Below are positions 30,039 through 41,171 of a stretch of 41,325 bases of DNA, in pieces. Location of the stretch: assembly GCA_016234495.1 (NCBI GenBank), contig JACRBI010000023.1:1-41325 (forward strand). The letters are read 5' to 3'. Source of the DNA: Chloroflexota bacterium. GTDB lineage: Bacteria > Chloroflexota > Anaerolineae > Anaerolineales > Villigracilaceae. The notes below the pieces were generated by a model. The model had not been told where the DNA came from, made no database searches, and was given only the letters and a program-made list of their open reading frames with translations. Position numbers and translations under genes: made by a program. How positions within the stretch are numbered: position 1 is the first letter of the stretch; the number at the start of each line of letters is the position of its first letter.

Positions 30039-30066
30039 TTGACTTATTTCCGTTTCCGCCTATAAT
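30039..30066 (+). promoter_or_regulatory. Sigma70-type promoter of the ilv-leu-cimA operon
   Basis: TTGACT (30039-30044), 16-bp spacer, TATAAT (30061-30066). Predicted start about 30073, giving a short 5' leader before the leader peptide. Confidence 0.85.
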
Positions 30067-30085
30067 CGGGCGAAATTCACAAGCC

Positions 30086-30190
30086 ATGTACACACTTTTA
30101 TCCAGCCTCTCCCTTATTGTAGTCGTCCTTGTAGTCCTTATTATTAAAGGACAATTTTCGGTTAGGATGGCAGCGGTGAGAGTAAAGTAA
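30086..30190 (+). CDS. ilvL: Branched-chain amino acid leader peptide (attenuation)
   Basis: 34 residues starting MYTLLSSLS. Codons 10-20 (30113-30145) encode [11 protein letters not shown], eleven branched-chain codons in a row, using both common and rare Leu/Val/Ile triplets. This is the hallmark of leader peptides that sense charged tRNA-Leu, -Val and -Ile. It starts about 13 nt after the predicted transcription start and ends 20 nt before a strong terminator (30210). The TAA at 30188-30190 places a terminating ribosome over the antiterminator strand at 30160-30170. Confidence 0.85.
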
Positions 30191-30222
30191 ATCACTGAAT
30201 GAGAACGAGAGCCGCCCTAACC
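30134..30222 (+). promoter_or_regulatory. Attenuator: pause hairpin and antiterminator pairing
   Basis: GTCCTT (30134-30139) pairs with AAGGAC (30147-30152) as the first hairpin, inside the control codons. GGTTAGGATGG (30160-30170) pairs with CCGCCCTAACC (30212-30222) in the terminator: 10 of 11 positions pair, one of them G-U. A ribosome stalled at the Leu/Ile/Val run leaves the second pairing free and blocks the terminator. Confidence 0.75.
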
Positions 30223-30237
30223 ACGGGCGGCTTTTTT
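30210..30237 (+). terminator. Attenuator terminator of the ilv operon
   Basis: AGCCGCCC (30210-30217) pairs perfectly with GGGCGGCT (30225-30232) around a 7-nt loop and is followed by a T-run. Confidence 0.93.
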
Positions 30238-30253
30238 ATTATCAATTAAGAGC

Positions 30254-30306
30254 GGACGATAGACCGTTGACCGTAAAACACCGTCCATCGTCTACCGTCT
30301 ACGGTC
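30254..30306. repeat. Palindromic spacer repeat, family A, before ilvD
   Basis: Imperfect inverted repeat built from GACGATAGACCG-type words and their complements (GTCCATCGTC, CTACGGTC). Related copies lie at 33727, 34373 and 39545. Confidence 0.65.
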
Positions 30307-30338
30307 AGTCATCAAACAATAAACACCACAGGAGTTCT

Positions 30339-32006
30339 ATGCGTTCAGACACAGTCAAAAAAGGATATGAGAAAGCCCCGCATCGCGCGTTACTGCGCGC
30401 CACGGGTTTGCAGGACGATGATTTCAAGAAACCGTTTGTTGCCATTGTTAATTCTTATGTGGATGTTGTCCCCGGACATGTGCATTTGCAGGATTTCGGC
30501 AAACTGGTCAAGGACGCTGTCCGCGCGGCGGGCGGAGTTCCATTTGAGTTCAACACCATCGGCGTGGATGACGGCATCGCGATGGGTCACATGGGGATGA
30601 AGTACTCGCTTCCTTCGCGTGAACTGATTGCTGACTGCGTCGAGACCATGATCGAAGCCCATAGATTCGACGCCATGGTCTGCATCCCGAACTGTGACAA
30701 GATCGTGCCTGGCATGTTGCTGGCCGCGATGCGCGTCAACGTACCGACCATTTTTGTCTCTGGCGGGCCAATGAAAGCAGGCGTCACTCCCGATGGCGAA
30801 ACGATTGACTTGATCTCTGTCTTTGAAGGTGTCGGCGCATTTTCAGCGGGGAAAATTGACGAGAAGCGTTTATCCATTTTGGAAAAATTTGCATGTCCAT
30901 CCTGCGGTTCGTGTTCTGGCATGTTCACCGCCAACTCCATGAACTGTCTGATGGAAGTGCTCGGTCTCGCCCTGCCTTATAACGGCTCTGCCTTGGCGAA
31001 GACTCCCGAACGCGAAGCATTGGCGAAACAAGCTGCGGCACAGATCATGACCTTGATCGAACGCGACATCAAGCCGCGAGACATCGTGACCGCCGAAGCG
31101 ATTGACGATGCGTTCGCGCTGGATATGGCAATGGGCGGCTCGTCGAATACAGTGCTACACACTCTGGCATTAGCCAACGAAGCCAATGTGGACTATCCGC
31201 TGGATCGCATCAACTCGGTCGCAGACAAGGTGCCGCATATCTGCAAAGTGAGTCCAGCCGGCAAATGGCACATGGAAGATGTTCATCGTGCAGGCGGAAT
31301 CCCTGCCATTTTGAACGAAGTCCAGCGGGGGACAGGCATGTTACATTTCGACCGCATTACGGTCACAGGCAAGACCTTAGGGGAATCGATTCAAGGCGCA
31401 GAAATAAAAGACGAAGAAGTAATTCGTAAATATGAAAATGCCCATTCCAGACGCGGCGGACTGTCTATTTTATTTGGCAACCTCGCGCCTAATGGGGCAG
31501 TGGTCAAAGTCGGCGGCGTGAGCGAAGCGATGATGAAGTTCGAAGGTCCCGCAGTTATTTTTGAATCACAGGATGATGCCATGGCTGGAATTCTCGCCGG
31601 CAAGGTCAAAGCAGGAGATTGTGTTGTGGTGCGTTATGAAGGTCCGAAGGGCGGGCCGGGGATGCAGGAAATGCTTTCGCCCACGTCCGCAATCATGGGG
31701 CAGGGACTCGGCGACAAGGTTGCGCTCATCACCGATGGGCGATTCAGCGGCGGGACTCGCGGCGCATGCATCGGTCATGTCTCGCCGGAGGCTGCTGCGG
31801 GCGGTCCGATTGGGGCGCTCAAAGCCGGGGATGTAATCCAAATTGATTTGGTGGCACGCAGTCTCAACGTCAAGTTGAGCGACGCGGAAATTCAGAGTCG
31901 GCTCGATGCGCTGCCTCCGTTCAAATCCACGACCACATCCAAATGGTTAAAGAGATATTCATATTTTGTAACGAGCGCAGATACAGGAGCAATTCTGAAT
32001 TCATAA
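30339..32006 (+). CDS. ilvD: Dihydroxy-acid dehydratase
   Basis: 555 residues, normal length. It dehydrates dihydroxy-isovalerate and dihydroxy-methylvalerate to the 2-keto acids of valine and isoleucine. Seen: [11 protein letters not shown] and the iron-sulfur cysteines in [19 protein letters not shown], then [23 protein letters not shown] lies 4-8 nt before ATG 30339; frames extending further upstream cross the repeat and are not real. First structural gene of the attenuated operon. Its last residues and stop codon lie within a palindrome (31992-32014), so the repeat has supplied the end of the gene. Confidence 0.95.
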
Positions 32007-32038: not shown

Positions 32039-33724
32039 ATGAAAAAAACAGGTGCTGAAATTTTGTGGGAATGTGTGGTGCGCGAAGGCGTGGAGGTTGT
32101 CTTCGGGTATCCGGGCGGGGCGAACATGCCGATCTATGATGCGATGTTGAGTTATCCCATCCATCATGTTTTGGTGCGGCACGAGCAGGGCGGCGCGCAC
32201 ATGGCGGACGGATATGCGCGCGCTTCCGGCAAAGTTGGAATGGCGATGGGGACGTCGGGTCCCGGGGCGACGAATCTCGTCACGGGCATTGCCACGGCGA
32301 TGATGGATTCTGTTCCTGTTGTATTCGTTACGGGACAGGTCGCCGCGCACCTCATTGGCGGTGATGCGTTTCAAGAAGTGGACGTGACCGGCATCACCCT
32401 GCCGATCACAAAACATAATTATCTCGTGACACGCGCCGACCAGATCGCGGATGTCGTGCGCGAGGCATTTTACATCGCCCGCAGCGGACGCCCCGGCCCT
32501 GTGCTGATCGACATCTGCAAGAACGCGCAGGTAGAACAATGTGAGTTTGTCTACCCTGAAAATGTGAGACTGCCCGGCTATCAGCCTGTTGCACATGCGC
32601 CAAAAGATTCTCTTGAACATGCGGTGAAATTAATTGAGAAGGCTCAGCGCCCGATCATTTTATGCGGCCATGGCGTGCTGGCATCCAAGGCCGAAGAAAT
32701 TTTGATGAACTTTGCAGTGAAGACTCAAACACCCGTCGCAAGCACCTTGCTGGGGCTAGGGGCGTTTCCCGCTTCGCATGAATTAAGCCTCGGCATGATG
32801 GGGATGCACGGCGAAGTCCATACCAACATGGCGATTCAAAATTCCGACCTGATCCTTGCTTTCGGGATGCGCTTCGATGACCGCGTGACCGGCACATTGA
32901 AGACCTATGCTCCGCGCGCAAAGAAAATTCATATTGAAATTGACCCGTCTGAAATTCACAAGAATGTGGCGGTGGACGTTCCCCTGGTCGGCGATTTGAA
33001 AACCGTCCTGACCGATCTCGTTCCGCTGGTGGATGAATACGATCACGAAGAATGGTTGAAAGAAATCAGCGATTGGAAAGCCGAAGCCGACTCGCGCAGC
33101 ATCATGAACTGGCCTGATGACGGCAAACTTTATGTGCCTCATCTAATCGCGGATATTTGGAAGGCGACAGGCGGCGGCGCGATCATGACCACGGATGTCG
33201 GTCAGCATCAAATGTGGACGGCACAGTATTACGCGCTCGATAAACCGAATCGCTGGCTCACTTCCGGCGGCGCGGGCACGATGGGCTTTGGTCTGCCCTC
33301 CGCGATTGGCGCATGGTTCGCCGCGAAAGATCAGGAAATTTGGGCCATCGCTGGCGACGGCGGTTTCCAGATGACCGCCGCAGAACTCACGACTGCCGTT
33401 CAAGAAGGCGCGAACGTAAAAGTTGCTATCATGAACAACAGCTTCCTCGGCATGGTGCGTCAGTGGCAGGAGTTCTTTTTTGAGAAGCGCTACTCCGCCG
33501 TGAATATGCTTTCACCTGATTTTGTGAAACTCGCCGAAGCGCACAATGTCCCTGCACGGCGAGTCACCAAACGCGAAGAAATTGATGAAGCCATTGCCTG
33601 GGCGCGCAGCATTAAGGGACCGACAGTGATTGAGTTCCGTGTTGAACAGGAAGACGCAGTTTATCCGATGGTTCCTGCAGGCGCGGCTTTGGATCAGATG
33701 TTGCAGAGACCTGCGAAGGCGTAA
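32039..33724 (+). CDS. ilvB: Acetolactate synthase large subunit
   Basis: 561 residues, TPP-dependent. It makes 2-acetolactate or 2-aceto-2-hydroxybutyrate, the first common step of valine, leucine and isoleucine synthesis. The catalytic Glu is in RHEQGGAHMADGYARA (Glu49), the FAD/QVAAHLIGGDAFQE region is intact, and the TPP/Mg motif GDGGFQMTAAEL with NN follows near residue 440-470. The AAGGAGAG Shine-Dalgarno before ATG 32039 decides the start over the in-frame codon at 31943, which would overlap ilvD. The regulatory subunit IlvN follows. Confidence 0.95.
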   Translation: MKKTGAEILWECVVREGVEVVFGYPGGANMPIYDAMLSYPIHHVLVRHEQGGAHMADGYARASGKVGMAMGTSGPGATNLVTGIATAMMDSVPVVFVTGQVAAHLIGGDAFQEVDVTGITLPITKHNYLVTRADQIADVVREAFYIARSGRPGPVLIDICKNAQVEQCEFVYPENVRLPGYQPVAHAPKDSLEHAVKLIEKAQRPIILCGHGVLASKAEEILMNFAVKTQTPVASTLLGLGAFPASHELSLGMMGMHGEVHTNMAIQNSDLILAFGMRFDDRVTGTLKTYAPRAKKIHIEIDPSEIHKNVAVDVPLVGDLKTVLTDLVPLVDEYDHEEWLKEISDWKAEADSRSIMNWPDDGKLYVPHLIADIWKATGGGAIMTTDVGQHQMWTAQYYALDKPNRWLTSGGAGTMGFGLPSAIGAWFAAKDQEIWAIAGDGGFQMTAAELTTAVQEGANVKVAIMNNSFLGMVRQWQEFFFEKRYSAVNMLSPDFVKLAEAHNVPARRVTKREEIDEAIAWARSIKGPTVIEFRVEQEDAVYPMVPAGAALDQMLQRPAKA

Positions 33725-33798: not shown

Positions 33799-34365
33799 AT
33801 GTTATACACTTTCATTGCATTAGTAGAAAACAAACCCGGCGTGTTGAACCGCGTGGCGTCATTGTTCCGCCGCCGCAACTTCAACATCGAGTCATTGGCT
33901 GTCGGGCGCACCGAGAAACCTGACATCTCGCGCATGACCGTCGTGGTGGATTGTCCCAACGGGGATTTGGATGCGCACAAGATAGAGGCGAATCTTTATA
34001 AACTCGTCAACGTGATCGATGTGCAGGACGTGACGCATCAACCTTCGGTGACCCGTGATCTGGCTCTGATCAAGGTGATGGTCGGCCCCGAGAAACGCGC
34101 CGAAGTCAACAGCCTTGCGGAAATATTCCGCGCCCGCATCGTAGACGTGGCGGCTGATTCTGTCATCGTTGAGATCACCGGCACCGAAGACAAGATCGAA
34201 GGCATGATCGAACTCTTGCGCCCGACCGGTATCGTCGAAATGGTGCGCACGGGTCAAGTTTCGATGACGCGCGGAGTCAACGATGGAGTCCGCCGGGTGC
34301 AGCAGGGCACAACAGGGAACAGGTATCTTGAGGAATACGATGAGATGCCGGAGATGGCGCCGTAG
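33799..34365 (+). CDS. ilvN: Acetolactate synthase small (regulatory) subunit
   Basis: 188 residues. N-terminal ACT domain (residues 1-75; FIALVENKPGVLNRVASLFRRRNFNIESL), which binds valine for feedback inhibition in this family, and the C-terminal ALS small-subunit domain. AGGAG lies before the start. At 188 residues it is longer than the E. coli IlvH/IlvN forms. It pairs with IlvB just upstream. Confidence 0.94.
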   Translation: MLYTFIALVENKPGVLNRVASLFRRRNFNIESLAVGRTEKPDISRMTVVVDCPNGDLDAHKIEANLYKLVNVIDVQDVTHQPSVTRDLALIKVMVGPEKRAEVNSLAEIFRARIVDVAADSVIVEITGTEDKIEGMIELLRPTGIVEMVRTGQVSMTRGVNDGVRRVQQGTTGNRYLEEYDEMPEMAP

Positions 34366-34372
34366 AAAACTC

Positions 34373-34434
34373 GACCATGGACGATAGACGATTGACCGTA
34401 AAACCACACGGTCTACGGTCAATCGTCCACGGTC
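34373..34434. repeat. Palindromic spacer repeat, family A, between ilvN and ilvC
   Basis: GACCATGGACGATAGACGATTG and its near-complement CAATCGTCCACGGTC form a long hairpin (the arms are 34373-34395 and 34418-34434). Confidence 0.7.
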
Positions 34435-34490: not shown

Positions 34491-35543
34491 ATGGCAAAAA
34501 TTAATTTTGGCGGTACCGTTGAAGATGTTGTCACTCGCGACGAGTTTTCACTTGATAAAGCGCGTGAAGTTTTGAAGAATGAAGTTGTGGCGGTCATCGG
34601 CTACGGCGTGCAGGGACCTGCCCAAGCGATGAACATGCGCGACAATGGCATCACCGTGATCGTCGGTCAGCGCGAAGGGACAAAGAACTGGGACAAGGCC
34701 GTTGCTGATGGCTGGGTACCCGGCGAGACTCTCTTCAATGTGGAAGAAGCCGCAGAAAAAGGGACAGTCATTCAATACCTGCTCTCTGATGCAGGTCAGC
34801 GCTCACAATGGCCGAAGATCGTGGAATGTCTCAACGAAGGCGACATGCTCTACTTCTCGCATGGCTTCTCCGTCACGTTCAAGGATGACACCGGCGTTGT
34901 GCCTCCCCCGCATGTGGATGTGGCGCTCGTTGCGCCCAAAGGATCGGGCACAAGCGTCCGCCGCAACTTTTTGGCGGGCAGCGGAATCAACGCCAGCTAT
35001 GCAGTTCATCAGGATTTCACAGGCAAGGCCAACGAACGCGCCATTGCTTTGGGCATTGCCATCGGCGCGGGATATTTGTTTCCGACCACTTTCAAGAACG
35101 AAGTTTACAGCGATCTGACAGGTGAGCGCGGAGTTTTAATCGGCGCGCTCTCGGGCGTGATGGAAGCGCAATACAACGTCCTCCGCAAGCACGGACATTC
35201 CCCTAGCGAAGCCTTCAACGAAACAGTGGAAGAACTTACGCAATCCCTGATCCGTCTCGTTGGCGAGAACGGTATGGACTTCATGTATGCCAACTGCTCA
35301 ACAACTGCCCAGCGCGGCGCACTGGACTGGCATCCGCGTTTCCGCGATGCGGTTGCGCCTGTGTTCGATGACCTGTATGAATCCGTTCTGAGCGGCAACG
35401 AAGCCCGCATCACACTCGAAGCCAACAGCCGCGCGGACTATCGCGAAAAATTGGAAGAAGAACTGGCCGCTTTCCACAATTCTGAAATGTGGCAGGCAGG
35501 CGCGGCGGTACGTTCATTACGACCGGAAAACTGGAAAAAGTAA
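34491..35543 (+). CDS. ilvC: Ketol-acid reductoisomerase
   Basis: 350 residues. The Rossmann motif is GYGVQGPAQ near residue 39, and catalytic helix motifs include SDLTGERGVLIGA, GHSPSEAFNETVEE and CSTTAQRGALDW. It converts acetolactate and acetohydroxybutyrate with NAD(P)H to the dihydroxy acids. Sequence words such as GHSPSEAFNETVEE and GMDFMYANCSTTAQRGALDW, from memory, match the fungal mitochondrial Ilv5 type rather than the enteric or short class I form. AAGGAG lies before the start. Confidence 0.95.
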   Translation: MAKINFGGTVEDVVTRDEFSLDKAREVLKNEVVAVIGYGVQGPAQAMNMRDNGITVIVGQREGTKNWDKAVADGWVPGETLFNVEEAAEKGTVIQYLLSDAGQRSQWPKIVECLNEGDMLYFSHGFSVTFKDDTGVVPPPHVDVALVAPKGSGTSVRRNFLAGSGINASYAVHQDFTGKANERAIALGIAIGAGYLFPTTFKNEVYSDLTGERGVLIGALSGVMEAQYNVLRKHGHSPSEAFNETVEELTQSLIRLVGENGMDFMYANCSTTAQRGALDWHPRFRDAVAPVFDDLYESVLSGNEARITLEANSRADYREKLEEELAAFHNSEMWQAGAAVRSLRPENWKK

Positions 35544-35593: not shown

Positions 35594-35607
35594 TTGAAGG
35601 AGTGCAA

Positions 35608-37245
35608 ATGACGAATTATGTAAAGATATTCGACACAACATTAAGAGATGGCGAACAGTCCCCGGGCGCGACGATGACTTCGGCGGAAAAACTGGAAGTG
35701 GCGCGGTCGCTGGCGCGCATGGGCGTGGACATCATCGAAGCGGGATTCCCTGCCGCCTCGCCGGACGACCTCGAAGCCGTCAGACGAATCGCTGTCGAGG
35801 TGGGCAACCAGCCCAAAGGACAGACCGATGCGAAAGTCCCTGTCATCGCCGGACTGGCGCGCGCAAACAAATCCGATATTGACAAGGCGTGGGAAGCTGT
35901 CAAAGGCGCGCAGAATCCCCGCATCCATACTTTCCTTGCGACATCACCGATCCACATGAAGCACAAGCTGAAAATGGATCCGGAGGAAGTGGTGCAGCGC
36001 GTTTCTGAGATGGTTGCGTACGCGCGCTCACTCTGCGCGGATGTTGAGTTCAGCCCCGAAGATGCGGGGCGTTCCGACCCGCAGTTTTTGTATGTTGTGC
36101 TGGGTGAGGCGATCAAGGCCGGCGCGACCACGTTGAACATTCCTGACACGGTCGGTTACACCACGCCCGATGAATATTTCAATTTGATCGATGGCATCAT
36201 CAAGAACACGCCGGGGATGCATGATGGCATCACGGTTTCTGTGCATTGCCACGATGACCTCGGCATGGCGACTGCGAATGCGCTGGCTGGGATTCAAGCG
36301 GGCGCGCGTCAGGCTGAAGTGACCATTAACGGCATCGGTGAACGCGCGGGCAATACATCGCTTGAAGAAGTTGTGATGACGCTTAAGACCCGCCACCCTG
36401 TTTTCAACCTTGAAACTGGAATCGAAACGCAGCAGCTTTCGCGCGTTTCAAAATTGGTCAGCAATTACACGGGCATTGTGGTTCAGCCGAATAAAGCCAT
36501 TGTCGGTGCGAATGCATTTGCGCATGAAGCGGGCATTCATCAGGATGGAATGTTGAAGCACCAGACCACGTATGAGATCATGCGCCCGGAAGATGTGGGT
36601 GTGAATCAGACGATGTTGGTGATGGGCAAACATTCAGGCCGCGCCGCATTGCGCGCGCGGCTGGCTGTGATGGGACACTCGCTCGATGAAGCCGAACTTG
36701 ATAAAGCTTTTGCGCGTTTCAAGGAACTGGCTGACCGCAAGAAGGTCATTACCGATGCCGACCTCGAAGCCGTGATCGCCGATGAGTTCTATCGTCCGCG
36801 CGATGTATATTATCTCGAAGGTTTGCAGGTTTCATGCGGCACACTTGGAATGCCCACCGCCACCGTCCGCTTGCGCGGACCCGACCGCGAGATTTACAAC
36901 TTCGCTTCGATGGGCACTGGCCCGGTGGATGCGACCTACAAAGCCATTGACGCAATCGTCAAGATGCCGTGCAAACTGCTCGAGTTCAACATCCACGCCA
37001 TCACCGAAGGCATTGACGCCCTCGGCGAAGTGACTGTCCGCATTCAAAGCGACAACAACAACGATACCAAAATGGATGCGCAAAGCGAGCTTGAATATGC
37101 GCGCGTTTACGGTGGTCACGGCGCGGATATGGACATCATCGTTGCCAGTGCCAAGGCATATATCAACGCGCTCAATAAATTGATCATCGCCAAGACCGAA
37201 GGCACACAGCCTCTCCAAAATAATTTTGGCGTGATGCTGGGGTAA
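35608..37245 (+). CDS. leuA: 2-isopropylmalate synthase
   Basis: 545 residues. [12 protein letters not shown] at residue 9 is the HMGL-like catalytic start; metal site [14 protein letters not shown] near 210; [11 protein letters not shown] follows. The C-terminal 120 residues form the LeuA allosteric domain for leucine feedback. It condenses 2-ketoisovalerate and acetyl-CoA, the first step specific to leucine. GGAG before ATG 35608 decides the start. It is similar in plan to cimA, which ends the operon. Confidence 0.93.
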
Positions 37246-37338: not shown

Positions 37339-37509
37339 ATGACCTCTCAAAATGAAGAATTCGGCACGTATGAAAATCAATCTTTTGATCATTACCCTAA
37401 AGCTCCCATGTTCCCCACTGGCTGGGATTTGAGCGAAATGCAGACTAGGCCAGAAGATAGAGAAGTTGAAGCAAGCGCCTCTGATGATGAGGGCATTCCT
37501 AATCCCTAA
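37339..37509 (+). CDS. 56-residue acidic protein between leuA and leuC
   Basis: Starts MTSQNEEFGTYENQSFDHYP and is acidic (many Glu and Asp near the C-terminus), with no membrane segment. A GGA-containing purine-rich site lies 8 nt before the ATG. Its stop codon is formed by the right-hand inverted repeat (37498-37511), and the gene is enclosed by both arms. No family recognised; it may be an accessory peptide or a passenger of the repeat. Confidence 0.5.
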   Translation: MTSQNEEFGTYENQSFDHYPKAPMFPTGWDLSEMQTRPEDREVEASASDDEGIPNP

Positions 37510-37525: not shown

Positions 37526-38926
37526 ATGCCTAAAACTCTCTTTGACAAAATCTGGGAATCGCACGTTGTTGCAGAACAACCTGAATCTCCCGCCATCCTT
37601 TACATTGACTTGCACCTCGTGCATGAAGTCACATCTCCGCAAGCCTTCACTGGCCTGCGTCAGCGCGGACTCAAAGTCCGCCGCCCCGAGAAGACTCTCG
37701 CCACGATGGATCATTCCATCCCGACGACTCCGATCGATGTCCCCATCGCAGACGCAATGGCCGCCGCGCAGATTCAGCAAATGGAAACCAATGCCGCCGA
37801 ATTCGGAATCACACTGCACGGCATGACCAGCCCGCATCGCGGCATCGTCCACGTGATCGGACCTGAACTCGGGCGCACGCAACCCGGCATGACCATTGTC
37901 TGCGGCGACAGTCACACCGCCACGCATGGCGCGTTTGGCGCGCTGGCTTTCGGCATCGGCACGTCTGAAGTTGAACATGTCCTTGCGACTCAATGCCTGC
38001 TGCAAAATAAACCGAAGACATACGAAGTGCGAGTGAACGGAACTTTATCCAATGGCGTTTCAGCCAAGGATATTATTCTCGCTCTGATTGCGAAGATCGG
38101 CGTCGGTGGGGGGACAGGGCACGTCTTTGAATTCACCGGTGAAGCCATCCGCGGACTTTCGATGGAACAGCGTATGACCATTTGCAACATGTCCATTGAA
38201 GGCGGCGCGCGCGCGGGCATGATCGCCCCCGATGAAGTCACCTTTGAATATCTCAAAGGACGCGAGTTCGCTCCCCAAGGCGCAGAATGGGACAAGGCTG
38301 TTGCCTATTGGAAGACTCTGCCCAGTGACGAAGGCGCAACGTACGACAAGTCCGTTACGCTCGAAGCCTCCGAGCTTGAGCCAATGATTACCTATGGCAC
38401 GAATCCCGGCATGGGCATGAAGATCACAGACCGAGTCCCGAGCACAGAGTCATTCACCGAACCTTCACAAAAGGCCGCGTTTGAAAAAGCATTAGCGTAC
38501 ATGGGACTCGAAGCCGGTCAATCCCTGCTCGGCAAAAAAGTGGACGTGGTCTTTATCGGCTCCTGTACCAACTCACGCATCTCCGATCTGCGACTTGCTG
38601 CCTCGGTACTCAAAGGCAATAAAGTTGCCGATGGATTACGTCTCATGGTTGTGCCCGGCTCACAGGATGTTAAGAAACAAGCAGAGCAAGAAGGCTTGGA
38701 TAAAGTCTTCAAAGAAGCAGGCGCGGAATGGCGCGAAGCTGGCTGCTCGTTATGCATAAGTATGAATGGAGACTTCGTTCCTTCTGGCCAATATGCAGTT
38801 TCTACAAGCAATCGGAATTTTGAAGGCCGTCAGGGAAAAGGTTCACGTACTTTCTTAGTTAGTCCAGTTACTGCTGCTGCCACAGCAATAAATGGGGTCG
38901 TAACCGATCCAAGGACGATGATCTAA
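37526..38926 (+). CDS. leuC: 3-isopropylmalate dehydratase large subunit
   Basis: 466 residues, aconitase family. Iron-sulfur cysteines are in [11 protein letters not shown] and [10 protein letters not shown] near the C-terminus; [22 protein letters not shown] is the substrate motif. It isomerises 2- to 3-isopropylmalate and, in the citramalate route, citramalate to 3-methylmalate. The last 180 bp (from about 38745) are visibly more AT-rich with other codon choices than the rest of the gene. Confidence 0.94.
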
Positions 38927-38972: not shown

Positions 38973-39554
38973 ATGGCTCAATTCACAACATTAACTTCCC
39001 GCGCAATTCCGCTCCCAGTCAACGATATTGATACGGATCAGATCATCCCCGCGCGCTTTCTCAAAGCGACCGACAAAAAAGGCATGGGCGACAATCTCTT
39101 CGCCGACTGGCGTTATAACGCCGATGGCTCTCCCAAAGCGGACTTCATTCTTAATCAGGCCAACTCAAAGGGCGCGCAAATTCTATTAGCCGGAGACAAC
39201 TTCGGGTGCGGCTCGAGCCGTGAACATGCGCCCTGGGCGCTGACAGGTTTCGGATTCAAGGCGGTCATCTCCACATCCTTTGCCGACATCTTCCGCAATA
39301 ATTCCTTGAAGAATGGACTCATCCCCATCATTGTGGATGACGCGACTCACAAAATGCTCTTTGACCTTTTGGAGGAAGCGCCCCGCGCCGAACTGACAGT
39401 TGATCTTGCAGCCCAGACAGTTTCCTTCCCCGGTGGTTCCTTCGCCTTCCCAATTGACCCATTTAACAAAACATGTTTATTAAATGGCGTGGACGAACTT
39501 GGGTACATCATGGGATTTGAGAAGGAAATCGCGGCATTTGAAAATAGACAATAG
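38973..39554 (+). CDS. leuD: 3-isopropylmalate dehydratase small subunit
   Basis: 193 residues. Substrate-specificity region and the swivelling-domain motif [17 protein letters not shown] at residues 73-89. Forms the active isomerase with LeuC upstream. GGAG precedes the start. Its stop lies against a family A palindrome, so the C-terminal residues (ENRQ) are repeat-derived. Confidence 0.94.
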
Positions 39555-39614: not shown

Positions 39615-41171
39615 ATGACAAAGATTCAAATCTACGACACCACCCTGCGTGACGGAACGCAATCCGAAGGCTTCAACCTTTCGGCGAATGACAAAGTCCG
39701 CATCGCGCACAAACTGGATGAACTCGGCGTTGCCTTCATCGAAGGCGGCTGGCCTGGCTCCAACCCCAAAGATGTGGAGTTCTTCGAACGCGCGCGCGAC
39801 ATGCAATGGAAGAATGCGCTCATCGCAGCATTCGGTTCCACCTGCCGCGTCAAAGGCGGCCCCGAAGACGACGCGAATATCAAAGCCCTGCTTGATTCGC
39901 AAACCCCCGTCTGCACCATCTTTGGCAAAACGTGGACTCTGCACGTCACCGAAGTTTTGCAAACCACGCTCGAAGATAATCTGCGGATCATCGAGCAGTC
40001 TGTTGCCTATCTCAAAGCCAACGGCAGGCGCGTCATCTACGATGCCGAGCATTTTTTCGACGGCTACAAAGCTGATTCATCCTACGCGCTTGAAACCTTG
40101 AAGGCGGCCATTCGCGGCGGCGCGGAAATGGTCGTGCTGTGCGACACCAACGGCGGCTCCATGCCCTGGGATGTTGAACGCATCATCCGCGAAATGAAGT
40201 CTTCCATCACGCATCCCTTCGGCATTCACCCGCATAATGATTCCGAGACCGCGCTCATCAATGCGCTGACCGCCGTGCGCGAAGGCGCGATTCAAGTTCA
40301 AGGCACGATCAACGGCGTGGGCGAACGCTGCGGAAACGTGAACCTGTGCTCGGTCATGGCGAACCTCGAACTCAAGATGGGATATCAATGCCTGCCCAAG
40401 GGAAATATCCAGCACTTATATGACCTGTCTCATTTCGTCGCGGAGGTTGCCAACATCACGCCCGACGAGCATTTGCCTTTCGTGGGCAAATCTGCCTTCG
40501 CACACAAAGGCGGAGTGCATGTCGCTGCGATGAGGCGCTCGGCTGTTTCCTATCAACACATCAGCCCGGAAAGCATCGGCAACAAAATGCGCGTGGTGGT
40601 CTCGGATTTGTCCGGGCGTGGAAACCTGCTCAGCAAAGCCGAAGAACACGGCGTGGAAGTGGACGGCACGGAGGTCGTTCCCATTCTCAACGAGATCAAA
40701 GAACTTGAAGCGCGCGGTTTTTCATTTGAAGCGGCTGAGGCCTCGGTTGCGATCATGTTGAAGCGGCAGGAATACGGCTACAAGCCGCCGTTTGAACTGA
40801 TTGACTTCTTCGTCAACGTTGAGCATCGTCAGGGACGCGGCATTTTCGCCGAAGCGATGGTCAAAGTCCGCGTGCAGGGCGAAGTGCTGCACACCGCAGC
40901 CGAAGGCAACGGCCCGGTCAACGCGCTGGATCTTGCGCTGCGAAAAGCACTGATGGGATACTATCCGCGCATCGCGAATTTTCATTTGTCCGATTACAAA
41001 GTCCGCATCCTGGATTCAGATCACGGCACAGAAGCCATCACCCGCGTCTTGATCGACACGCGCAATACTACCTCGCGCTGGAGCACTGTCGGCGCGGGCA
41101 CGAACATCATCGAAGCCTCATGGCGCGCGCTCGCGGATTCGGTGGAATATGGTTTGATGGTGGCGCATTAA
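39615..41171 (+). CDS. cimA: (R)-citramalate synthase
   Basis: 518 residues. HMGL-like domain with DTTLRDGTQSEGF at residue 8, metal motif HPHNDSETALINAL near 205, GERCGNVNLC, and a C-terminal LeuA-type dimer/allosteric domain (about 390-515). CimA condenses pyruvate and acetyl-CoA to citramalate, which LeuCD and LeuB convert to 2-ketobutyrate, bypassing threonine in isoleucine synthesis. Sequence differs from LeuA in the active-site region (SEGF in place of SPG). It is the last gene of the operon and lies 50 bp after leuD. Confidence 0.92.
   Translation: MTKIQIYDTTLRDGTQSEGFNLSANDKVRIAHKLDELGVAFIEGGWPGSNPKDVEFFERARDMQWKNALIAAFGSTCRVKGGPEDDANIKALLDSQTPVCTIFGKTWTLHVTEVLQTTLEDNLRIIEQSVAYLKANGRRVIYDAEHFFDGYKADSSYALETLKAAIRGGAEMVVLCDTNGGSMPWDVERIIREMKSSITHPFGIHPHNDSETALINALTAVREGAIQVQGTINGVGERCGNVNLCSVMANLELKMGYQCLPKGNIQHLYDLSHFVAEVANITPDEHLPFVGKSAFAHKGGVHVAAMRRSAVSYQHISPESIGNKMRVVVSDLSGRGNLLSKAEEHGVEVDGTEVVPILNEIKELEARGFSFEAAEASVAIMLKRQEYGYKPPFELIDFFVNVEHRQGRGIFAEAMVKVRVQGEVLHTAAEGNGPVNALDLALRKALMGYYPRIANFHLSDYKVRILDSDHGTEAITRVLIDTRNTTSRWSTVGAGTNIIEASWRALADSVEYGLMVAH

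Follow-up and report, generated by a model that had tools for sequence, protein, structure and literature searches.

A predicted ribosome-mediated attenuator of the ilvL/leuL type before the ilv-leu-cimA operon in a Chloroflexota order

The ilvL leader of Escherichia coli, which precedes ilvGMEDA, combines a run of Ile/Val/Leu codons with an antiterminator 5' strand that lies in the leader reading frame (strand 2) and with a GC-rich terminator followed by a T-run, and the E. coli leuL leader uses four consecutive Leu codons as its control run. BCAA leader ORFs and ilvB motifs have also been described in Actinobacteria (PMC1262725; PMC10272879); there the ilvB leaders and the ilvB-II motif (Corynebacterium) place a BCAA-rich leader ORF and a terminator before ilv genes, the terminator stem pairs with a loop, that of the hairpin P1 upstream (PMC10272879), and by its title a cited study reports that leaders in C. 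glutamicum are translated without a ribosome binding site (cited in PMC1262725; PMC10272879). Six T-boxes are reported for two Chloroflexi genomes (PMC2494555), and exchange between T-boxes and leader peptides has been described (PMC2965389), in a paper whose main text contains neither 'Chloroflex' nor 'ilv'. Our literature search, which for these sources extended to partial texts, found no report of such a leader in Chloroflexota; an earlier prediction may be contained in the attenuation survey of Lopatovskaya 2010 (cited in PMC4833913).

Here we analysed a 41,325-nucleotide stretch of DNA (the window), which corresponds to contig C6 in an assembly of 57 contigs and 4.1 Mb. Its sequence and RNA modelling make it highly probable (about 0.93) that a ribosome-mediated transcription attenuator of the ilvL/leuL type precedes an ilv-leu-cimA operon. 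A sigma70-type promoter with 11 of 12 consensus bases can be read directly from the forward strand (30039-30066), on which all features named below also lie, and consists of a -35 element TTGACT (30039-30044), a 16-nt spacer and a -10 element TATAAT (30061-30066). The leader peptide ORF (30086-30190; 34 codons and a TAA stop at 30188-30190) has its ATG at 30086, 19 nt past the -10 box and approximately 13 nt after the presumed transcription start, and no Shine-Dalgarno-like 4-mer (AGGA, GGAG or GAGG) was found before it, in both of which it is unlike E. coli ilvL. Codons 10-20 (30113-30145) are 11 consecutive Leu/Ile/Val codons (Leu-Ile-Val3-Leu-Val2-Leu-Ile2), a mixed run unlike the Leu codons of leuL; Leu/Ile/Val account for 23% of the codons in 20 window ORFs, and an 11-codon run would be expected by chance at approximately 1e-7 per start position. 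A hairpin (GUCCUU...AAGGAC, 30134-30152) spans the end of the control codons and may possibly be an RNA polymerase pause hairpin; when 48 leaders are aligned, 39 fold better here than their mononucleotide shuffles, at z < -2. Strand 2 (30160-30171; GGTTAGGATGGC) follows this hairpin, unlike the loop pairing of ilvB-II, and occupies codons 25-29 of the leader frame, as strand 2 of ilvL likewise lies in frame. The intrinsic terminator (30207-30237) comprises a hairpin of 11 pairs between strands 3 and 4 (30207-30235) and a T-run, and its strand 3 (30211-30222; GCCGCCCTAACC) forms 11 pairs with strand 2 over 12 positions, including one G-U, compared with 8 pairs found by our script for ilvL and 6 for leuL. 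The promoter, leader with its control codons, antiterminator strand and terminator thus all lie where a preliminary description of the sequence had placed them, and its pairing of 10 of 11 positions for 30160-30170 agrees with the slightly longer helix measured here.

Behind the leader, on one strand, the gene order is ilvD-ilvB-ilvN-ilvC-leuA-(56-aa ORF)-leuC-leuD-cimA, which adds leuA, leuC, leuD and cimA when compared with E. coli ilvGMEDA, and does so in a different phylum. The dihydroxy-acid dehydratase gene ilvD (30339-32006; TIGR00110) is followed by ilvB (acetolactate synthase large subunit; 32039-33724; TIGR00118), whose ORF opens at 31943 and whose start at 32039 comes after AAAAGGAG, and then by ilvN (acetolactate synthase small subunit; 33799-34365; TIGR00119), ilvC (ketol-acid reductoisomerase; 34491-35543; TIGR00465) and leuA (2-isopropylmalate synthase; 35602-37245; TIGR00973). 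After a small ORF of 56 aa (37339-37509) come leuC (37526-38926; TIGR00170), leuD (38973-39554; TIGR00171) and cimA (citramalate synthase; 39615-41171; TIGR00977). The small ORF has no Pfam match and is matched in six other same-genus genomes (7 of 61 counting the window's own) at 33-57% identity, in each case on the ilvD contig and several kilobases downstream of ilvD. The nine genes counted previously are therefore nine only if this ORF is included, the recognised enzyme genes being eight; leuB, considered as a ninth, was rejected, the sole leuB match above the cut-off in the assembly being on contig C49. All nine ORFs are probably co-transcribed. A dispersed repeat of the GACGATAGACCGTTGACCG... 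type lies between the terminator and ilvD (30255-30306) and has 18 further matches in the genome, one of which lies between ilvN and ilvC (34379-34434).

A promoter scan alone performs at chance level in the window (1 found, mean of 1.1 in shuffles), and terminator-like sites are more frequent than in shuffles (4 found, mean 1.0). What places the promoter, leader and terminator above chance is their conservation: the promoter is kept in 49 of 50 close-relative leaders, the leader and terminator in 76 of 79 named loci, and the cognate pairing exceeds all of 2000 permutations (see below for each). A search for IlvD in 61 genomes gave a match in 45, and the leader, the terminator and at least 8 pairs between strands 2 and 3 were found in 32 of the 34 same-genus loci that could be parsed. 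One of the two misses (G001) was misparsed by the script, its contig being a named locus that carries the leader (L080) and also gives a strong match to our RNA model, and in the other (G017) the contig ends one base before ilvD. The RNA model adds two genomes (G019 and G027), so that the module is present in 35 of 37 same-genus genomes, a count that includes two not judgeable (G017, and G014, which has no ilvD match and weak model matches only). Among 50 non-redundant leaders of close relatives, 49 have an upstream promoter that matches 9 or more of the 12 consensus bases, and the single miss (G025) results from an upstream ATG picked by the script. As far as can be judged from sequence, this strong predicted promoter speaks against a transcription start downstream of the terminator, which the preliminary description had named as refuting its reading. 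The octamer CGGGCGAA, directly 3' of the -10 box (30067-30074), is near-constant in close relatives and is a GC-rich discriminator. The commonest distance from the -10 box to the start codon is 19 nt (27 of 50 close-relative leaders), and because this distance is short, the leader start lies near the presumed RNA 5' end. A Shine-Dalgarno-like 4-mer occurs in none of these 50 leaders and in 9 of 53 others. The Leu/Ile/Val run is kept in relatives, where it is often interrupted by one or two other residues.

Beyond the genus, we read named ilvD loci that were the best 80 of 594 confirmed candidates and are for that reason the closest relatives of the window IlvD rather than a random sample. The closest of these records are labelled as Chloroflexi, Anaerolineae or Anaerolineales MAGs, with one Candidatus Villigracilaceae, and by these labels the window probably belongs to Anaerolineales (Chloroflexota). 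One locus (L112) has no upstream DNA; among the remaining 79 of these best 80, a Leu/Ile/Val-rich leader is present in 77 and a leader with a terminator (at or below -10 kcal/mol) in 76, nearly all with Chloroflexi or Anaerolineae labels. The exceptions are L094, which lacks the terminator, and L103 (labelled Acidobacteria) and L114 (labelled Ignavibacteriae), which lack a credible leader. A stricter scan demanding at least 8 pairs between strands 2 and 3 finds the module in 79 of 86 loci, and not in L093, L094, L103, L110, L114, L121 and L127. Overall, 103 of 110 non-redundant candidate leader ORFs are followed by a terminator; of the seven that are not, six are extra hydrophobic ORFs that we judged spurious, including the L114 candidate, and the seventh (L094) is real-looking. 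The isolates Bellilinea caldifistulae, Leptolinea tardivitalis, Flexilinea flocculi and Ornatilinea apprima carry the module, as do other families of the order. The attenuator is nevertheless not universal there: of 24 genomes sampled from the same order but from other genera, 14 have it (13 by strong RNA-model matches at E 4e-9 or better, and G047 by locus parsing); the other ten (G040, G042, G044, G049, G053, G055, G056, G057, G058 and G060) gave no or weak model matches only. Since the RNA model (R1) kept only terminator pairs, its weak matches, from approximately E 1e-7 upward, are largely other terminators; we used the strong matches and a second match in G041 (E 8.0e-7), which lies beside a strong one and has a leader. 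It is on all judgeable same-genus genomes and these 14 of 24 others that the spread through a large part of the order is based, and the computational support for this predicted mechanism, an ordinary one that is widely conserved in the lineage, is strong.

In the wider phylum, where 165 genomes have an ilvD match, 60 further upstream regions were read (L138-L157 and 40 others). The leader, terminator and pairing strand occur together in eight loci of two families (L146-L148 and L150-L154), and the module is also found in two relatives of the window (G098, L191; G146, L190) whose IlvD is just 43% identical. A T-box precedes ilvD in two other genomes (L158 and L163), and by the same criteria the other 48 regions have neither module nor T-box, with a few doubtful candidates. 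Among the candidates set aside, L157, L168 and L186 have poor or absent pairing or no terminator, a leader-like ORF in L145 was not counted because its terminator was not found, and a T-box match in L179 was not counted because it overlaps a tRNA match. The T-boxes before ilvD invite the reading that in the window too a tRNA- or ligand-sensing riboswitch, a T-box or another, runs the terminator and the leader ORF is incidental, the more so as the window's genome has eight T-box matches, four of which were located upstream of pheS, a trpB-like gene, thrS and ileS (contigs C7, C25, C32 and C14; L207-L210). We regard this as highly improbable: the T-box covariance model (RF00230) finds nothing in the window, every Rfam family stays below its gathering threshold both in the window leader and in 20 further loci of the set, and what these leaders conserve most is the in-frame Leu/Ile/Val codon run. 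The top Rfam score was 20.7 bits for Phe_leader (RF01859; gathering 55) and the lowest E-value 0.042 for Teg23 (17.7 bits; gathering 166), so that the leader family, unlike the actinobacterial ilvB leaders and ilvB-II motif, is without a match in Rfam 15. By analogy the attenuator would resemble a T-box in antiterminating upon amino-acid starvation, and would be unlike one in that its presumed sensor is a translated codon run. T-boxes for other genes and ilv-leu leader-peptide attenuation appear to coexist in the window's genome.

The alternative helix between strands 2 and 3 is exclusive with the terminator and is conserved by covariation, more weakly in a fixed register. It has 6-17 pairs across 103 leaders and is formed by dissimilar sequences in different leaders, such as GGTTAGG/CCTAACC, GTTTGAGGCGGC/GCCGCCTCAAAC and GGGCAGCCCT/AGGGCTGCCC. 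Outside the close group (53 leaders), cognate duplexes have a mean of -21.1 kcal/mol as against -15.8 kcal/mol when partners are swapped, and in the median case 5 of the 52 swapped arms outscore the cognate one. Across 50 deduplicated leaders the gapped complementarity score is 25.0 for cognate arms, compared with a permutation mean of 18.7 (sd 0.5) and a maximum of 20.8 in 2000 partner permutations. Taken leader by leader, the pairing stands out only moderately from dinucleotide shuffles, with a median z of -2.5 and all 100 shuffles beaten in 33 of 103 cases. Covariation counted in a fixed register is modest, with 64.9% of positions paired versus 60.6 +/- 1.2% in partner shuffles (maximum 64.1% of 1000), and a one-base slide still yields 64.2%, since the helix of one clade is shifted by a single base. 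Alignment of relatives, as the preliminary description had proposed, thus finds the codon run and both alternative pairings conserved, whereas their lack of conservation is what it had named as refuting. This covariation also bears on the possibility that the leader acts by coupling only, through suppression of Rho by upstream translation or re-initiation at ilvD, with the antiterminator unused. Leader ORFs have been proposed to work via re-initiation (PMC4833913), yet the leader stop lies 148 nt from ilvD, the intrinsic terminator is kept throughout nearly all of the named loci counted above and the alternative helix covaries, which makes coupling alone barely credible.

The spacing of these elements points the same way as their pairing, to attenuation of the ilvL/leuL type. 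In close relatives the position of strand 2 is narrow (10th-90th percentile, 16-19 nt before the stop), and in all 103 leaders the stop is at least 12 nt from the terminator, near the reach of the ribosome's leading edge. In all 103, too, the stop falls in the interval from strand 2 to strand 3, which measures 35 nt or more, so that a terminating ribosome would sit between the two strands. The same script measures 23 nt from strand 2 to the stop and 22 nt from the stop to the terminator in ilvL of E. coli K-12, 25 and 24 nt in leuL and 16 and 27 nt in ivbL, and it puts strand 2 over or past the stop in thrL, trpL and hisL; by these matching distances the geometry of the window is that of ilvL/leuL. 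Outside the close group the leader tail is basic beyond its base composition, with a mean net charge of +2.1 in the last eight residues of 52 tails against +0.8 (sd 0.2) after nucleotide shuffling, and 43 of the 52 are positive. A hydrophobic stretch and a conserved basic tail would suit a functional small membrane peptide followed by an ordinary terminator with partial read-through. As an account of the locus we find that very unlikely, as it explains neither the covariation between leader and terminator arm nor the narrow position of strand 2, and a peptide acting in trans would in any case be compatible with attenuation.

To model the switch, the RNA was cut just past strand 3 and folded at equilibrium with a ribosome footprint (A-site -16 to +13) kept single-stranded. 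For the window this gives an antiterminator when the A-site is at any of codons 4-20 and hardly any at codons 21-32, and other footprints change this little. A ribosome placed on the control codons leaves the antiterminator more than half formed in 94 of 100 leaders (47/47 close relatives and 47/53 others), as had been expected of a stalled ribosome, and with one on strand 2 it is below 20% in 100 of 100. Folding with and without the ribosome-masked segments thus yields the predicted switch. Without a ribosome the antiterminator has a median of 0.01 in close relatives and 0.19 in others, exceeding one half in 10/47 and 20/53, respectively; in the window it does form (8.2 of about 11 pairs). 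Strand 2 is more paired upstream without a ribosome than with a stalled one in 40/47 close relatives and 42/53 others, a difference that in the window is small (0.75 versus 0.70). The preliminary description had the ribosome at the leader stop mask strand 2, and here the folding disagrees: that ribosome covers 30172-30201 and leaves 30160-30171 free, and masking is unsupported since the antiterminator still forms at the stop codon in 43/47 close relatives and 26/53 others. At the stop position in the window the antiterminator declines gradually with larger assumed footprints and is mostly lost only once these extend some 24-28 nt to the 5' side of the A-site. Imperfect results also come from the E. 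coli controls (without a ribosome, ilvL fully formed and leuL not at all; at the stop codon, 0.60 for ilvL and 0.25 for leuL), so that even for known cases the method is no firm guide at the stop codon. In the full-length window RNA the terminator is favoured at equilibrium at every ribosome position, so the switch decision must be kinetic (co-transcriptional), as it likewise is in known attenuators.

From this anatomy and modelling we infer that transcription start, leader translation, stalling, termination efficiency and the response to amino acids would be linked as follows. RNA polymerase would start a few bases past 30066 and a ribosome would follow on the leader. When charged Leu-, Ile- or Val-tRNA is scarce, this ribosome would stall at codons 10-20, leaving strand 2 free to pair with strand 3 as the latter emerges, and the 2:3 helix would block the terminator so that the ilv-leu-cimA operon is transcribed. 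When the tRNAs are charged, the ribosome would move onto strand 2 and then to the stop between strands 2 and 3, where it probably hinders the 2:3 helix sterically and leaves 3:4 free; the terminator would then form and transcription end at approximately 30237. Without a ribosome, strand 2 would in many leaders be mostly held by upstream RNA, so that the default may also be termination. The excess of basic residues in the last eight of the leader raises the unlikely further idea of a nascent-chain brake, by which the charge would slow the ribosome just past strand 2 and keep it there, ahead of strand 3, until the terminator has formed. If true, a stop up to 38 nt past strand 2 could still give tight termination, and in some lineages two modules in series could sharpen the response.

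What these comparisons describe is in all probability textbook ribosome-mediated attenuation, placed ahead of the main operon for branched-chain amino acids across much of one Chloroflexota order, and the arrangements found before this one pathway (a single module, tandem modules, a T-box or nothing recognised) form a natural series in which regulator exchange could be studied. Two complete modules stand in series in L095, L096, G054 (L042) and G041 (L227), the last two being of the same family; a second 'module' in L077 was rejected as an overlapping frame. Tandem attenuators that answer different signals are described for the Salmonella mgtCBR leader (PMC3641672). The module also persists although the next gene changes: it lies before a different ilvD, unmatched by the window IlvD at the cut-off, in G019 (L226), G038 (L221) and G046 (L224); in G045 it precedes ilvB, and in G050 a CBS-domain gene that is followed by ilvB.
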